NCBI GenBank assembly: GCA_020354625.1
Contig: CP070651.1
Span: forward strand, 3,171,776-3,235,775
Source: Trueperaceae bacterium
GTDB lineage: Bacteria; Deinococcota; Deinococci; Deinococcales; Trueperaceae
Reading direction: 5' to 3'
Length of the DNA stretch: 64,000 bases
A model generated the notes under the pieces. It was not told the origin of the DNA. It ran no database searches and saw only the letters and a list, made by a program, of their open reading frames with translations. Shown in pieces: positions 1,465-33,929 of the stretch. Numbering within the stretch: the first letter of the stretch is position 1; every line of letters starts with the position of its first letter. Made by a program: the position numbers and the translations under genes.

Positions 1465-2214
1465 ATGATTGAAGTCAATAACATCACCAAGCGCTTCGGG
1501 TTGATCCAGGCGGTCCGGAATCTGAGTTTCTCCGTGGCGGCGGGCGAGGTATTCGGTCTTCTCGGTCCCAACGGCGCCGGCAAAACGACCACGTTGCGAA
1601 TCTTGGCCACACTACTCAAAGCCGACGCGGGAACCGCCACCATCGGCGGGCTCGATATCGTTCGAGACGCCGAGCGTATCCGTACCAACATCGGAGTAGT
1701 CAACGGTGGTATGGGGCTCTACGACCGCCTGAGCGGCAGGGAAATCCTCCACTACTTCGGCAAGCTCTACGGCATGAACCGCAGCGCGATCGAAGATCGG
1801 ATTCGGGAGCTAGACGGCTTGCTCGAGCTCGGAGACACGCTCGAACGGCGGGCCGGTGGCTTCTCGACCGGAATGAAACAGAAAATCGTCATCGCCCGAG
1901 CCGTCCTGCACGATCCACCCGTGATCTTCTTCGACGAGGCCACCAGCGGTCTCGACGTCATGGCGCGCCGGGCGGTCCTGGACTTCGTCGGAAACTATGC
2001 GAGCCGTGCTCGAGCCGTGATCTACTCGACGCACGTCATGAGCGAAATCGAGGAGCTCTGCAAGCGGGTTGCGGTGGTCTACCGGGGCGAACTCATCGCC
2101 CTGGATCGAGTAGACGCGCTGCGCCTCAAGACGGGGGCCATCAACTTGGAACAGGCCTTTTTCCGCATCATCGAAAGCTCCGACCAGCCGCGAGAGCAGG
2201 TGGCTCTGACATGA
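1465..2214 (+). CDS. natA: ABC-2 exporter ATP-binding protein, NatA-like
   Basis: A 249-residue ATPase. Walker A is GPNGAGKTT (about residue 34), the signature is the degenerate FSTGMKQK form seen in NatA and other ABC-2 exporters, and Walker B is VIFFDEATSGLD. The D-loop and the switch His (STHV) follow. It would energise the membrane protein encoded directly downstream, whose start overlaps this stop by 4 bp (ATGA), so the two are translationally coupled. NatAB of Bacillus exports sodium; the substrate here cannot be read from the sequence. The upstream purine-rich stretch AAGGAGAGGTGA lies about 15 nt before the ATG, a rather long spacing. Confidence 0.85.
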   Translation: MIEVNNITKRFGLIQAVRNLSFSVAAGEVFGLLGPNGAGKTTTLRILATLLKADAGTATIGGLDIVRDAERIRTNIGVVNGGMGLYDRLSGREILHYFGKLYGMNRSAIEDRIRELDGLLELGDTLERRAGGFSTGMKQKIVIARAVLHDPPVIFFDEATSGLDVMARRAVLDFVGNYASRARAVIYSTHVMSEIEELCKRVAVVYRGELIALDRVDALRLKTGAINLEQAFFRIIESSDQPREQVALT

Positions 2215-5020: not shown

Positions 5021-5223
5021 CTTTTGCCTCCATGACCACTGTGTCTCGCTGACCAAGGCGCCTACCGACCATGGCGCGCGCCGTTATCTCAAGTGACCGG
5101 CTCACGGATAACCCCGCGCTTAGCTACCGGGTAAGGGTGATGATACCCGCTTTCAGGTGCCCCCGGCAACGCCACCTCAACGCCCACTCTTGCAATCACC
5201 TTGCAGGACGCGGACTTGTTCAC

Positions 5224-29140: not shown

Positions 29141-29243
29141 TAAAGCGGTTGCCAAAATTATGTAAGCAGGTATCATCCAAGAAACGGGCTACAGGACAGG
29201 TTTTCAACCACTGACTTTGTCTATGACCAGATGATACCTGCTT
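29141..29243. repeat. 103-bp element with terminal-type inverted repeats, copy 1
   Basis: Matches 33808-33910 over 103 bp with about 7 substitutions and no gaps. It contains AAGCAGGTATCATC (29164-29177) and its exact reverse complement GATGATACCTGCTT (29230-29243), enclosing 52 bp. There is no ORF inside, so it is a non-autonomous MITE-like element or a structured RNA or terminator. It lies between the convergent ends of moaA and the thiolase gene. A partial end (CCTGCTTTAAA) also stands immediately to its left. Confidence 0.75.
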
Positions 29244-29307
29244 TAAACCGGCTTTCAGGGCAGTTGTTGCGCTGACTGAACGCCTCTGCTTTTACTCGCT
29301 CTGCTCG

Positions 29308-29334
29308 GGTGGTCTTGGCGCTGCCAAGACCACC
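29308..29334 (-). terminator. Hairpin with a 12-bp perfect stem after the thiolase gene
   Basis: GGTGGTCTTGGC, loop GCT, then GCCAAGACCACC. It begins 10 bp after the thiolase stop on the minus strand and sits between convergent genes, so it can serve both. A T-run is lacking on either side, so intrinsic termination would be inefficient or use another mechanism. Confidence 0.55.
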
Positions 29335-29344
29335 GAAAGACGGT

Positions 29345-30517
29345 TTAAAGCAGCTGGAATAGCCCCGCCATCCCCTGACCACCACCTACACACATCGAGA
29401 TAAGGCCGAACTCCTTGCCGCCCCGCTTCATCTCGGCAAAGAGATCTGCGGCGATGCGGGCCCCGGTCGCACCGAGCGGGTGCCCGATGGCGATCGCCCC
29501 ACCGTTGACGTTGAGCTTCTCGTCCGGGATACCGAGCTGCTGTTGACAGTAAAAACACTGGCTGGCAAACGCCTCGTTGATCTCGACGAGATCGATATCG
29601 GCCAGTCTCATCCCCGTCTCGGCCAAGAGTCGCTCGATGGCCGGCACGGGGCCGATGCCCATGATCTCCGGAGGGACACCGACCGCCACCGCGTGCACCA
29701 ACTTCACGAGCGGCGTCACCCCCAGCGTTTCCGCCTCTTCCCTACACATCACCACCGTCATGGCTGCGCCGTCATTCAGTGGGCTCGAGTTTCCAGCTGT
29801 GACGGTGGCCGCACCGTCGCTTGCAAACACCGTCTTGAGCGCCGCCAACTTCTCTAGATCGGTATCTTCCCGGGGCCCCTCATCGCGCAAAAGCGTCACG
29901 TCACCCCACTCGCCCTGGTCGTCTTTCACACGCGTCCGAACCGGCACGAGCTGCTCGGCGAACTTCCCACCCCGATACGCAGCCAGCGCCTTCTGATGAG
30001 ACTTGAGGGCAAAAGTATCCTGTTCTCGCCGGCTAATGCCGAACATCCTCGCTACCGCCTCTGCGGTCTGCCCCATGGTGTGATACGCTTCTGGGTGATC
30101 CCGGTAGAGCGCACGGTTGATGCTCATGGTGTGCCCTCCCATCGGTACGCGACTGGTGCAATCGCTCCCCCCTGCCAACACCACCCGGCTCATACCGAAC
30201 GAAACCGCATGCACACCCTGTACGATCGTTTGCAAGCTACTGGCGCAAAAACGGTTGATGGTGGCAGCAGCGACTCGGGTCGGTAACCCGGCGATCTGTG
30301 TCGCAATTCGAGCCAGGTTGTAGCCCGCCTCCCCTTCGGGATGAGCGTTCCCGATCAACACATCGTCGATCCGCCCCAAATCGAGATCAGGAATCTTGGC
30401 CAGCGCTTCACGGATCACCAACGCCGCCAGATCGTCCGGTCGGGTATCTTTGAGCCTTCCTTTGTGGGCGCGGCCTACCGGCGTGCGAACGGCGGCGACG
30501 ATAACGGCTTCGTTCAT
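29345..30517 (-). CDS. Acetyl-CoA acetyltransferase (thiolase)
   Basis: 390 residues. The nucleophilic Cys lies in NRFCASSLQTI (about residue 90), the active His in NVNGGAIAIGHPLGATGAR, and the second acid/base Cys in ISMCVGGGQGMAG. It either cleaves 3-ketoacyl-CoA in fatty acid oxidation or condenses acetyl-CoA; the FadA/AtoB choice cannot be made from sequence alone. The ATG at 30517 has AAGGAG upstream; the frame is open for 22 codons more. Monocistronic, with no other beta-oxidation gene adjacent. A strong hairpin lies just downstream. The 181-bp gap to minC shows no gene. Confidence 0.92.
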   Translation of the reverse strand: MNEAVIVAAVRTPVGRAHKGRLKDTRPDDLAALVIREALAKIPDLDLGRIDDVLIGNAHPEGEAGYNLARIATQIAGLPTRVAAATINRFCASSLQTIVQGVHAVSFGMSRVVLAGGSDCTSRVPMGGHTMSINRALYRDHPEAYHTMGQTAEAVARMFGISRREQDTFALKSHQKALAAYRGGKFAEQLVPVRTRVKDDQGEWGDVTLLRDEGPREDTDLEKLAALKTVFASDGAATVTAGNSSPLNDGAAMTVVMCREEAETLGVTPLVKLVHAVAVGVPPEIMGIGPVPAIERLLAETGMRLADIDLVEINEAFASQCFYCQQQLGIPDEKLNVNGGAIAIGHPLGATGARIAADLFAEMKRGGKEFGLISMCVGGGQGMAGLFQLL

Positions 30518-30698
30518 TGGCTTCTCCTTCAAACGAACTCGGGGGTACGTTGAACGGCTTCTCGGCCCATCATGAGATGACACGGGAGGAACGCTGGGTC
30601 TTGGGAATATGTTCGCCGAGATCGCCTGACGGGTATACCATCACTCTCACCCTAGCCCCTCGCCACCTCGCAGATCCGCGCAAGGCATCTAGACGGTC

Positions 30699-31253
30699 CT
30701 ACCAGGGACGCAAAACGATCTGTCCATCTTGGAGGTGAGCGACTTCGGGTCCACCGCTAGTCTTATCGATCCCTGAGGCTTGTGCCAGCGCGTCACCGAT
30801 GCGCAGCTGAGGCGAGAGGATCTGCCGCGCCCAAATCACGGCGTTCTCATTCCCGTTTGCACCGGCATGGGCTACCCCACGCAAGATACCGACCACGATG
30901 ACATCGTCATTGGCGATGATCTCTGCACCGGCGTTGACATCGCCCAGGACCACTACGGAACCGCTCGATTCCACGCGTCCGCCACTCCGGATCGTCTTCG
31001 CCACAATCACCGTCTCACCGCGTGCCTGCGAAAGGATTGGGGGCGGACGCACCTCCAAAACCGTCCCCCCCACAGAGGCCACCTTCTGCACGATCAGATC
31101 GATCACCGGCCAGGAAACAGCGTCGCCGATTTCGATCACGATGTTGTTCTCGAGCAGATGTTGATGATCGTTCAAGGTATCGGGCAAGTTCTCCAGCGTA
31201 TCGCCTGAATCCAAGCTCAGCAAGATACCACCACGTGTACCGCGCGCTCTCAT
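30699..31253 (-). CDS. minC: Septum site-determining protein MinC
   Basis: 184 residues. The last 100 form the MinC beta-helix: RSGGRVESSGSVVVLGDVNAGAEIIANDDVIVVGILRGVAHAGANGNENAVIWA, shown here in pieces by the conserved RSG, LGDVNAGAE, LRG and AHAG motifs. The N-terminal FtsZ-inhibiting part is shorter than in E. coli (231 residues). It inhibits Z-ring formation near the poles with MinD. It starts within the stop of mrdA (4-bp overlap), so it is the last gene of mreD-mrdA-minC. MinD and MinE are not next to it. Confidence 0.9.
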   Translation of the reverse strand: MRARGTRGGILLSLDSGDTLENLPDTLNDHQHLLENNIVIEIGDAVSWPVIDLIVQKVASVGGTVLEVRPPPILSQARGETVIVAKTIRSGGRVESSGSVVVLGDVNAGAEIIANDDVIVVGILRGVAHAGANGNENAVIWARQILSPQLRIGDALAQASGIDKTSGGPEVAHLQDGQIVLRPW

Positions 31254-33031
31254 CGATCGACCCCCCAGTAACCCGCCATAAAGTCTCGGGCGATCGGCAC
31301 GGAAACGCGCGAGCTCGAGCCACCATACTCAACAAACACAACTACCGCCAACTCGGGACTCTCAATGGGGCCATAACCCATGAACCAGGAGTGGGTATAG
31401 GGTTCACCGCGCGGCGTCTGAGAGGTGCCGGTCTTGCCCGCCACCTCTATAGGAAAGACGCCGGGACCCATGATGTAGCGTGATGGAAATTCGGTAAACA
31501 TCAGTCGCATACCATCTTTCAACGTGCTCCAGTGACGCCCGGGGATCTGGTGACTCTCCGGATCGATCTTCACACCCCCCGTCGCCGCGACCAGATGAGG
31601 CTGCACTCGCAACCCATCGAGCGCCAAGGTTGCAATCATTTGCGCTACTTGGATCGGGGTCGCAAGCACATCTCCCTGGCCGATCACGGTGTTGAGCGTG
31701 AAGCCGGGCAGCCAGCCGTGCTGGTACTGAGGTTGCGCCTCCACCCAGCTCTTATCGGGAATCCGCCCCGTTTTCTCCTCGCCCACGCCGATCCCGACCG
31801 GTTCATCGTACCCGAATTCGCGCGCGCGCCTCACGAGATCTTCGATGAAAGGACCCCAACCCTTGGTGGCGTTCGGGGTGTTCGACACCGCGTGCCAAAA
31901 ATAGGTGTTGCAGCTATCGGCAATCGCCTCTTTGACCGTATAGGACCCCTTGTGTCCAGGATGCCAATTCCTCCAGGTGATGCCACCCAACGAAAAGCTC
32001 GCAGAGCAAGGCAAAAGGCTATCACTTTTCACGTAGCCTCTTTCAAGGAGAACCGAGCTCGTTACCAATTTGAAAGTCGAGGCCGGAGGATAGGCTTCGA
32101 CAGCACGGTTGCTGAGAGGGAAATTCAAGGTATCGTTGAGCAGCGGATTCACTTTTTCGGCATCGATTGGACGCTTGGTAAACAGGTTCTGATCGAACGT
32201 AGGCAGGCTCGCCATAGCCAAGATCTCACCACTTCGCGGGTCCAAGGCGATCAACGCTCCCCTGATGACCTCTTCGAATTCTACATCGTAACGGGCCCTG
32301 TCTTCGTTGACGTAGGAAAGCGCATTTTGCAAGGTATCCTCGGCGAGACGCTGCAACCTGGGATCGAGCGTCAACACCACATCCTTACCCGGCTGGGCCG
32401 GCAAGAGTTCTTGCGACCGCAATACCACACGGCGGTTATCGAGTTCGACGAGCTTCATGCCCGGTGAACCGAAAAGCTCCCGCTCCTGGCTCGCCTCGAT
32501 GCCCATGATGCCGATCAGATCGTCATTGCCGTATCCTGGGAAACGCTCGGAATCGGCCGCGCTGGTATAGCCGACGACCTGGGCCGCGAGGTTGGTCGGG
32601 TAGGTCCGCTCTACACGTTCGCGTAGATACAGGTTCGGCTGTCCAGCGGCAAGCTCTTCGACCGCCGGGATGAACCGGTCAGGGATATTCCAAGCCAGAA
32701 CCGCTCCGTTGCGACGCTCATCCGGCTTGCTCCGATCGGGGCCGCGCGGCTCTCCTGCAAGGTTCAGCAGGTATGCCAAACGCTCCCAATTCTCGATCGC
32801 CCCACCCCAATACATGAGATCGTAAGCCACCCGGTTATCTGCCAACACCGTCCCGTCCCGCGCCAGAATTCGACCTCGCAGGGGCGAAATACGCCGCTCC
32901 TCCAAAAAGTTCTGTTCGCTTAGGACGGTAAACTCCTCAGCCATCGCCAACTGCAAATACATGAGGCGCCCCGTAAAGAGCACGAGGCTGGTCAGAAGAG
33001 CAGCGAGCAAAAAGCGGAGACGCGTTGTCAC
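31250..33031 (-). CDS. mrdA: Penicillin-binding protein 2 (elongation-specific transpeptidase)
   Basis: 593 residues. An N-terminal transmembrane helix (residues 6-28), a pedestal region with LRGRILARDGTVLADN, and the transpeptidase domain with the active-site triad of motifs PPASTFK (S-x-x-K), ADSCNTY (S-x-N) and AGKTGTSQ (K-T-G). It crosslinks peptidoglycan during elongation together with RodA and the Mre proteins. It overlaps mreD upstream and minC downstream by 4 bp each, which implies a translationally coupled operon. RodA is not present nearby. Confidence 0.95.
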   Translation of the reverse strand: MTTRLRFLLAALLTSLVLFTGRLMYLQLAMAEEFTVLSEQNFLEERRISPLRGRILARDGTVLADNRVAYDLMYWGGAIENWERLAYLLNLAGEPRGPDRSKPDERRNGAVLAWNIPDRFIPAVEELAAGQPNLYLRERVERTYPTNLAAQVVGYTSAADSERFPGYGNDDLIGIMGIEASQERELFGSPGMKLVELDNRRVVLRSQELLPAQPGKDVVLTLDPRLQRLAEDTLQNALSYVNEDRARYDVEFEEVIRGALIALDPRSGEILAMASLPTFDQNLFTKRPIDAEKVNPLLNDTLNFPLSNRAVEAYPPASTFKLVTSSVLLERGYVKSDSLLPCSASFSLGGITWRNWHPGHKGSYTVKEAIADSCNTYFWHAVSNTPNATKGWGPFIEDLVRRAREFGYDEPVGIGVGEEKTGRIPDKSWVEAQPQYQHGWLPGFTLNTVIGQGDVLATPIQVAQMIATLALDGLRVQPHLVAATGGVKIDPESHQIPGRHWSTLKDGMRLMFTEFPSRYIMGPGVFPIEVAGKTGTSQTPRGEPYTHSWFMGYGPIESPELAVVVFVEYGGSSSRVSVPIARDFMAGYWGVDR

Positions 33032-33519
33032 AACAACTCCTTTCGCATGACCGAGCGACGCTTGACGAAGCGCTCAGCGACCGATAAGAGCCAGACACCG
33101 ACCAGCACGGTAAAGACCGTTTCGAGCGCGGCCACCGGTAGGCTCCTTAGCAAGGCCTCCGGCGTTGTGCTGAGCCAGAGCAACAGACCACCTACCGCAA
33201 GCCACTTGCCTACCTCTGCAGCCAAAATCACCACCGAGCGCTCGAACACCCCCTGTTGCGAGAGCTGCGCTCGCACCAGGGCCGCCAGGAGCGCCCCGCC
33301 GGCCAAGCCGAAGGCGTGAAGCCCCAACTCACCGTGTCCCACCAAGTCCTGAAACAGACCTACCCCATAAGCGACCGCCACAAGCTGCCAAGGGCTCAGG
33401 CGCCGAAGCAAGGTCAGCACCCCGATCAAAAACAGATCGGGCGCAGGCCAGGGACCGAGTACTGCCGACAAAAAACCCTGTGCGACGAGCAGCACAAGGT
33501 AGAAGAGCAGCAGCCTCAT
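33028..33519 (-). CDS. mreD: Rod shape-determining protein MreD
   Basis: 163 residues, mostly hydrophobic with about five transmembrane helices (LLLFYLVLLVAQGFLSAVLG, APDLFLIGVLTLLRRL, LVAVAYGVGLFQDLVGHGELGLHAFG...). The PDLFLIGVLTLL and GLFQDL motifs and its place directly before mrdA identify MreD, which links MreBC to the cell-wall elongation complex. mreB and mreC, normally upstream, are absent: 410 bp without genes separate it from ftsK. A TAGTAT box 8 nt before its ATG suggests it is the first gene of its transcript. Confidence 0.85.
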   Translation of the reverse strand: MRLLLFYLVLLVAQGFLSAVLGPWPAPDLFLIGVLTLLRRLSPWQLVAVAYGVGLFQDLVGHGELGLHAFGLAGGALLAALVRAQLSQQGVFERSVVILAAEVGKWLAVGGLLLWLSTTPEALLRSLPVAALETVFTVLVGVWLLSVAERFVKRRSVMRKELL

Positions 33520-33807
33520 AGTTCCCTATACTACATGCCTCAACCTGTACAAGATGAGGACAAAACAGACAACAGATGGACCGTGTGCTCTCTGTACCAG
33601 CGACAACGAGGGCGCGAGCGAAGCGGCTGCCAACATCAGATCGTGATCCATACCGTTACCGCCATCCCAACCCTCGACTTGAGCTACCGGGTCTCAAAAT
33701 TGATGGGGACGAAAAGGGTTCTCGCCTATGTTGTTATGCTGTTCTGGCGAGAAAGACGACCCCGTCCTACCCACTCGTTCGAAGTTGGCCCACGCATTGC
33801 TCATTAC
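33520..33807. other. Non-coding gap upstream of mreD
   Basis: 288 bp without a convincing gene on either strand. The minus-strand TAGTAT at 33528-33533 ends 8 nt before the mreD start and is probably its -10. Near the right end, ACGCATTGCTCATTACT (33793-33809) resembles part of the dispersed ACTCATTACC-type repeats at 39.06 kb. I found no trace of an mreC reading frame. Confidence 0.5.
33528..33533 (-). promoter_or_regulatory. -10 element of the mreD-mrdA-minC operon
   Basis: Minus-strand TAGTAT, 8 nt before the mreD ATG. AGGGA in the gap could be a weak ribosome-binding site, so the transcript is leaderless or has a very short leader. Confidence 0.4.
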
Positions 33808-33910
33808 TAAAGCGGTTGCCATAATTACGTAAGCAGGTATCATCCAAGAAACGGAATACAGGACAGTATTTCACCCACTGACTTTGTCTATGACCAGATG
33901 ATACCTGCTT
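33808..33910. repeat. 103-bp element with terminal-type inverted repeats, copy 2
   Basis: Second copy of the element at 29141-29243, same orientation and length. The 14-bp inverted repeats are perfect and lie at 33831-33844 and 33897-33910; substitutions fall outside them. It lies between the ftsK stop (33930) and the mreD promoter. No open frame inside. Confidence 0.75.
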
Positions 33911-33929
33911 TACTCCCTGATCACCGTTC

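Follow-up and report, generated by a model that had tools for sequence, protein, structure and literature searches.

A short TA-flanked repeat of Trueperaceae genomes as a probable non-autonomous transposable element

The closest described counterparts of the repeat reported here are RUP, the repeat unit of pneumococcus, and the Correia (NEMIS) elements of Neisseria. RUP, in the parts of the reports that describe it, is about 107 bp long, non-coding and present in about 100 copies, with TA at both ends and an over-representation between convergent genes (PMC2229807, PMC3049150). Against that partial description, the present element is alike in its length (105 bp with both TAs), copy number (about 50), lack of coding capacity, TA ends and bias towards convergent genes. 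By contrast, the ends of RUP are common to IS630-Spn1, whereas the genome that carries the present element (G000) contains no IS630-type (DDE_3) gene (0 found, with 3 of 14 control genomes positive), and the two sequences are apparently unrelated, as judged without alignment. The Correia elements are described in the relevant part of the source as a 107-bp class with TA termini, inverted repeats, target duplication and terminal repeats of 24 bp (PMC2229807). Compared by description, the size class, TA termini, inverted repeats and target duplication are shared; however, the Correia repeats are terminal, whereas the left arm of the present element lies 21 bp inside. The pneumococcal BOX element, again as partly described, provides a gene with its stop codon in 36 cases and has a module that may occur in several copies (PMC3049150), and it is built of modules (A-B-C) and spans 67-637 bp. 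The present element likewise supplies stop codons, which is therefore not new in principle, and its right end also occurs in multiple copies, although the stop codons come from the TAA at its terminus, and the multiplication, seen in relatives, is confined to the right end. The REP/BIME elements with RAYT, 20-40 bp palindromes with a GTAG/CGTC-type tag, look unlike a 101-bp unit with a 52-base loop, by description.

As far as the searches show, the element belongs to a new family of an ordinary known kind, a RUP- and Correia-like MITE set apart from both by their descriptions; no paper title or abstract opening that was found names it. We consider it very probable that these 101 bp make up a MITE, a transposable element of the Trueperaceae that is not autonomous but mobilised in trans at its two conserved ends. 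With this family, the Deinococcota gain a MITE for which the tolerated sites are clear, namely stop codons that the element itself rebuilds; among the families and ends searched, its transposase is missing from genomes with 50-80 similar copies. For annotation, such repeats are mistakable for terminators or regulatory RNAs.

Structure and distribution of the element

Two copies are located in the window, the 64-kb stretch of DNA that was analysed. An earlier note on this DNA had described them as 103-bp units at 29141-29243 and 33808-33910; the coordinates, shared strand, equal length and 93.2% identity are borne out, and perfect 14-bp arms are present at 29164-29177/29230-29243 and 33831-33844/33897-33910. 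The extent of the unit needs revision since 103 bp takes in one TA: the mobile unit is probably 101 bp long, with a TA dinucleotide on either side, and reads AAGCGG...CCTGCTT. The features are as follows.

29143..29243, + strand: copy 1 of the probable MITE, 101 bp, flanked by TA 29141-29142 and TA 29244-29245
33810..33910, + strand: copy 2 of the probable MITE, 101 bp, flanked by TA 33808-33809 and TA 33911-33912
29143..29154, + strand: conserved left end AAGCGGTTGCCA of copy 1, nearly invariant in 39 copies (copy 2: 33810-33821)
29164..29177, + strand: left (subterminal) arm of the 14-bp inverted repeat of copy 1 (copy 2: 33831-33844)
29230..29243, + strand: right (terminal) arm of the inverted repeat of copy 1 (copy 2: 33897-33910)
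29246..29345, + strand: copy of a second TA-flanked repeat family, about 104 bp with its borders (29244-29347), abutting copy 1 with a TA in common

The inverted repeat is asymmetric: the right arm is terminal and the perfect left arm is subterminal, with 52 bases between the arms, and the left terminus itself fits the right one imperfectly (AAGC-GG / AAGCAGG). The ends comprise AAGCGGTTGCCA and the inner arm on the left and TGACCAGATGATACCTGCTT on the right, the pair also being given as AAGCGGTTGCCA / AAGCAGGTATCATCTGGTCA. Aligned copies of G000 start with TAAAGCGG and finish with CCTGCTTTA; the edges are sharp at TAAAGC and GCTTTA, and the flanks are unrelated immediately beyond both ends. 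Among 39 aligned full-length copies that have the standard start and contain no N, 1.1% of cells vary in the 5′ arm, 0.9% in the 3′ arm and 5.4% in the loop. The earlier view that substitutions spare the arms thus holds, but the initial 12 bases, AAGCGGTTGCCA, are just as invariant, a point that had escaped notice; the loop is approximately five times more variable than these bases and both arms. Copy 1 starts approximately 50 bases past moaA and adjoins the second repeat family on its other side, and copy 2 has the start of an mreD-like ORF on one side and the end of ftsK on the other. Five of the six window neighbours have Pfam support, the mreD-like ORF being without a match.

The right end, GACCAGATGATACCTGCTTTA, occurs 52 times in the 4.29 Mb genome of this Trueperaceae member at up to 3 mismatches (reversed control, 0), and the 14-mer occurs 141 times at up to 2 mismatches, vs 6 for the reversed control pattern. 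With copy 1 as whole-genome query, 40 scored matches were obtained among 58 candidates. The element is short and non-coding, with many dispersed copies (approximately 50) and defined ends, as in a MITE. Related elements are patchy, being found in 6 of 39 Trueperaceae genomes with 8 to 70 matches each (17-mer, up to 1 mismatch; control, 0). When one genome per species was scanned with the 19-mer TGACCAGATGATACCTGCT, 17 of 19 stretches came from Trueperaceae or Truepera records; the remaining two, L094 and L084 (the latter from a Roseburia record), show no other part of the element by eye. Viral contigs gave 0 matches. The partial relative that the earlier note saw at 5138-5152 is a lone one-mismatch 14-mer (5139-5152) with the rest of the element absent around it, and is near chance: 3 unpaired one-mismatch 14-mers are listed genome-wide vs approximately 1.4 expected by simple arithmetic. 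At another position (L053, 3931040 of G000), an exact lone AAGCAGGTATCATC precedes a short hairpin, GCAGGTAT...ATACCTGC, with the rest of the element absent. Two further G000 copies (L030 and L050, at 511714 and 2797930) have an identical right flank of at least 102 bp, and the segment carrying the element seems to have been duplicated.

The relatives differ in form. The G009 form, CAGCGGTTTTCACAAATACTGA...GCAGGTATCATC...ACCAGATGATACCTGCTA, falls into classes of 116 and 134 bp, AGCGG through CCTGC, whereas the common form of G001, TATAGCACTCTAAA...GACCAGATGATACCTGCTATA, keeps the right end and is missing the complementary left arm. What stays constant across the family is the right end, and the right arm with the bases preceding it is the part most widely common to relatives. 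Furthermore, the sampled loci contain 20 right-end arrays of 2 to 6 repeats, the periods mostly falling between 20 and 32 bases and the spacers starting with TA in 20 of 37 cases; in three loci of G001 (L210, L154, and L101), such arrays are built on a 32-bp unit (GACCAGATGATACCTGCTACTCAAGGTTGTTT or variants of it) and apparently lack all other parts of the element. Self-insertion followed by collapse fits a nested copy of G009 (L178, below) and part of the G009 arrays; for G001, where array spacers are unlike the sequence preceding the first arm, this origin is a guess.

Insertion in a relative and the search for a mobilising enzyme

Evidence of mobility was obtained in G009 from the flanks of 35 copies, at chosen contig places among 70 matches, of which 31 have both ends. 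Target duplications of 2-3 bp flank 28 of these 31 complete copies: an identical 3-mer (TCA or TGA) stands on both sides in 18 (5.7 in shuffles) and a 2-mer in 10 more (1.7 in shuffles), and neither count was reached in 2000 shuffles, the offsets having been picked after viewing the listing, in a scan of 45 length/offset combinations. The empty target is mostly CTNAG, as judged by eye. A duplication length that varies between 2 and 3 bp, with no duplication in 3 of 31 copies, is unusual for a single transposase. At L178, one copy is nested in another, and a TGA of the host copy is duplicated on either side of it; the order is AAATACTGA, the whole inner copy and TGAGTCGGCTTAGCG, where uninterrupted copies have ACTGAGTCG. 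At L271 (about 1800-2060, minus strand), a different element of approximately 240 bp is inserted at the same TGA of a first-family copy and obeys the same end rule, TGA|C...TA|TGA. These two loci are direct evidence of insertion. The MITE-like character proposed by the earlier note is accordingly supported by the dispersed copies and conserved ends and by the duplications and nested insertion in a relative; terminators at conserved positions with no sign of mobility, the finding that the note had said would count against it, do not describe these copies. In G000, TA is present on both sides of nearly all copies, which suggests a duplication of TA, although only an empty site could prove it.

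In the mechanism that we propose, a trans-acting transposase, presumably of the DDE type, would recognise both conserved ends (on the left AAGCGGTTGCCA with the inner arm, on the right TGACCAGATGATACCTGCTT), and insertion would occur at TA in G000, or at a TNA-type site within CTNAG in G009, with 2-3 bp being duplicated. A full-length transposon sharing these ends, which the earlier note suggested looking for, was found in neither G000 nor G009, and nor was a transposase with these ends, among the families and ends searched; the families covered were DDE_3, DDE_Tnp_1, and DDE_Tnp_4. An origin from IS630 or Tc1-mariner was rejected, given the lack of DDE_3 in G000 and the duplication of TCA, TGA, TT, AA, and CA besides TA in G009. 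A DDE_Tnp_1 partner was likewise rejected: three such genes, whose proteins we take to resemble the ISAs1 and IS1634 types, are without these ends except for loose matches with 2-3 mismatches. TNA or TA target duplications are made by members of the IS5 family (IS1031 and IS427 groups), but the corresponding DDE_Tnp_4 gene is absent from G000, G009, and G001, and common ends are not shown. It was not found in G013 either; G017 has one such gene and G021 has four fragments, and the right end is absent from these five loci at up to 2 mismatches, the sole match being a single AGCGGCTTTCA per locus in three of the G021 loci. The 14 G009 loci with an unpaired left end are mostly complete copies with a right end that is mutated or cut by the contig; one is interrupted by another element of approximately 240 bp and others are truncated, and no transposase-sized insert was found between the ends. 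Either the source has been lost, or the partner belongs to a family outside the search, or its ends are more divergent than was allowed.

Gene ends and alternative explanations

Genes were called with a simple home-made codon-score method, which recovered the expected window genes, and context was counted for 49 distinct right flanks of G000, with L030 dropped (its right flank being that of L050) and two weak solo right ends excluded. Copies are located between convergent genes in 27 cases, between genes in line in 7 and 10, and between divergent genes in 5, and none of the 49 extends more than 30 bases into a called gene. The convergent share, 27 of 49 copies, compares with 33 of 349 permissible (gene-sparing) TA sites in the window. 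Moreover, 16 of the 49 copies coincide precisely with a stop codon, that of the gene which faces their right end, and supply it through their terminal TAA, vs 7.4-7.6% expected (P about 3e-7); the gene-context nulls rest on one 64-kb window and the home-made caller. Ten of the 16 genes were scanned and nine have clear domains: RuvA_C extends as far as the final residue, and in the pyruvate kinase and the aminotransferase the domain stops within a few residues of the end. Since domains reach near the gene ends, these genes look naturally ended. Both ends of the element read TAA inward from the flanking TA, and because of this an insertion into TAA or TAG leaves a stop codon. An element landing in such a codon would rebuild TAA and be harmless, and hence copies would persist on stop codons and between convergent genes; the bias would thus reflect survival under selection rather than active targeting.

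The bias towards convergent genes also speaks for a transcription terminator or 3′-end RNA element selected at gene ends for its 14-bp stem, as do the stable folds, with z of -3.2 to -3.8 (copy 2 on both strands, copy 1 minus) and -2.0 (copy 1 plus). This explanation is nevertheless very unlikely: the stem is followed only by TTTA and no T run, the window has 0 Rfam matches at gathering scores, G001 has lost the stem and retained the right end, the right-end 17-mer is wholly absent from 33 of 39 family genomes, and mobility is demonstrated in G009. The RNA stem that the earlier note offered as one reason for the arms is not a general requirement, as G001 relatives have no complementary left arm. 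A conserved stem had also been considered for one locus of G013 (L170), where GCAGGTAGTATC with GATGCTACCTGC looked compensatory, and was set aside because no pairing left arm occurs in G001.

A riboswitch-like, cis-regulatory RNA leader is more improbable still. Some diverged G013 copies are located 11 to 30 bp upstream of start codons (L149, L155, and L165), yet a following gene in the same direction is found for only 12 of 49 G000 copies, and the window lacks an Rfam match. Equally hard to credit is that the two copies are scars of a single rearrangement of the thiolase-minC-mrdA-mreD block, which the earlier note thought they might have framed. They share an orientation and stand 4.7 kb apart on either side of the block; however, their flanks differ and copy 1 abuts another repeat. 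Neighbouring pairs within 5 kb number 5 vs 3.0 expected among 52 copies (P = 0.18), and since close pairs occur at chance frequency, nothing ties the two window copies together.

Neighbouring repeats

The second family (TAAACCGGCTTTC...GAAAGACGGTTTA) is likewise MITE-like and has a strong inner hairpin and 39 matches genome-wide, and the thiolase stop codon is formed by the right end of its window copy and the following TA. Several families of unrelated sequence might belong to one Trueperaceae-specific superfamily of mini-elements, which would obey one end rule (TGA|C...TA|TGA in G009; TA|...|TA in G000), be moved by an integrase outside the usual IS transposases, use gene ends as a safe haven through stop-regenerating ends, and multiply their own right end as extra binding sites; we regard this wider proposal as speculative and rather unlikely.

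Copies of the first family repeatedly adjoin the TA border of the second (in the window and at L007, L034, and L024). Furthermore, the flanks of four G000 copies (L001, L018, L028, and L041) have in common a third kind of dispersed repeat, roughly 110 bp long and approximately 70% identical.
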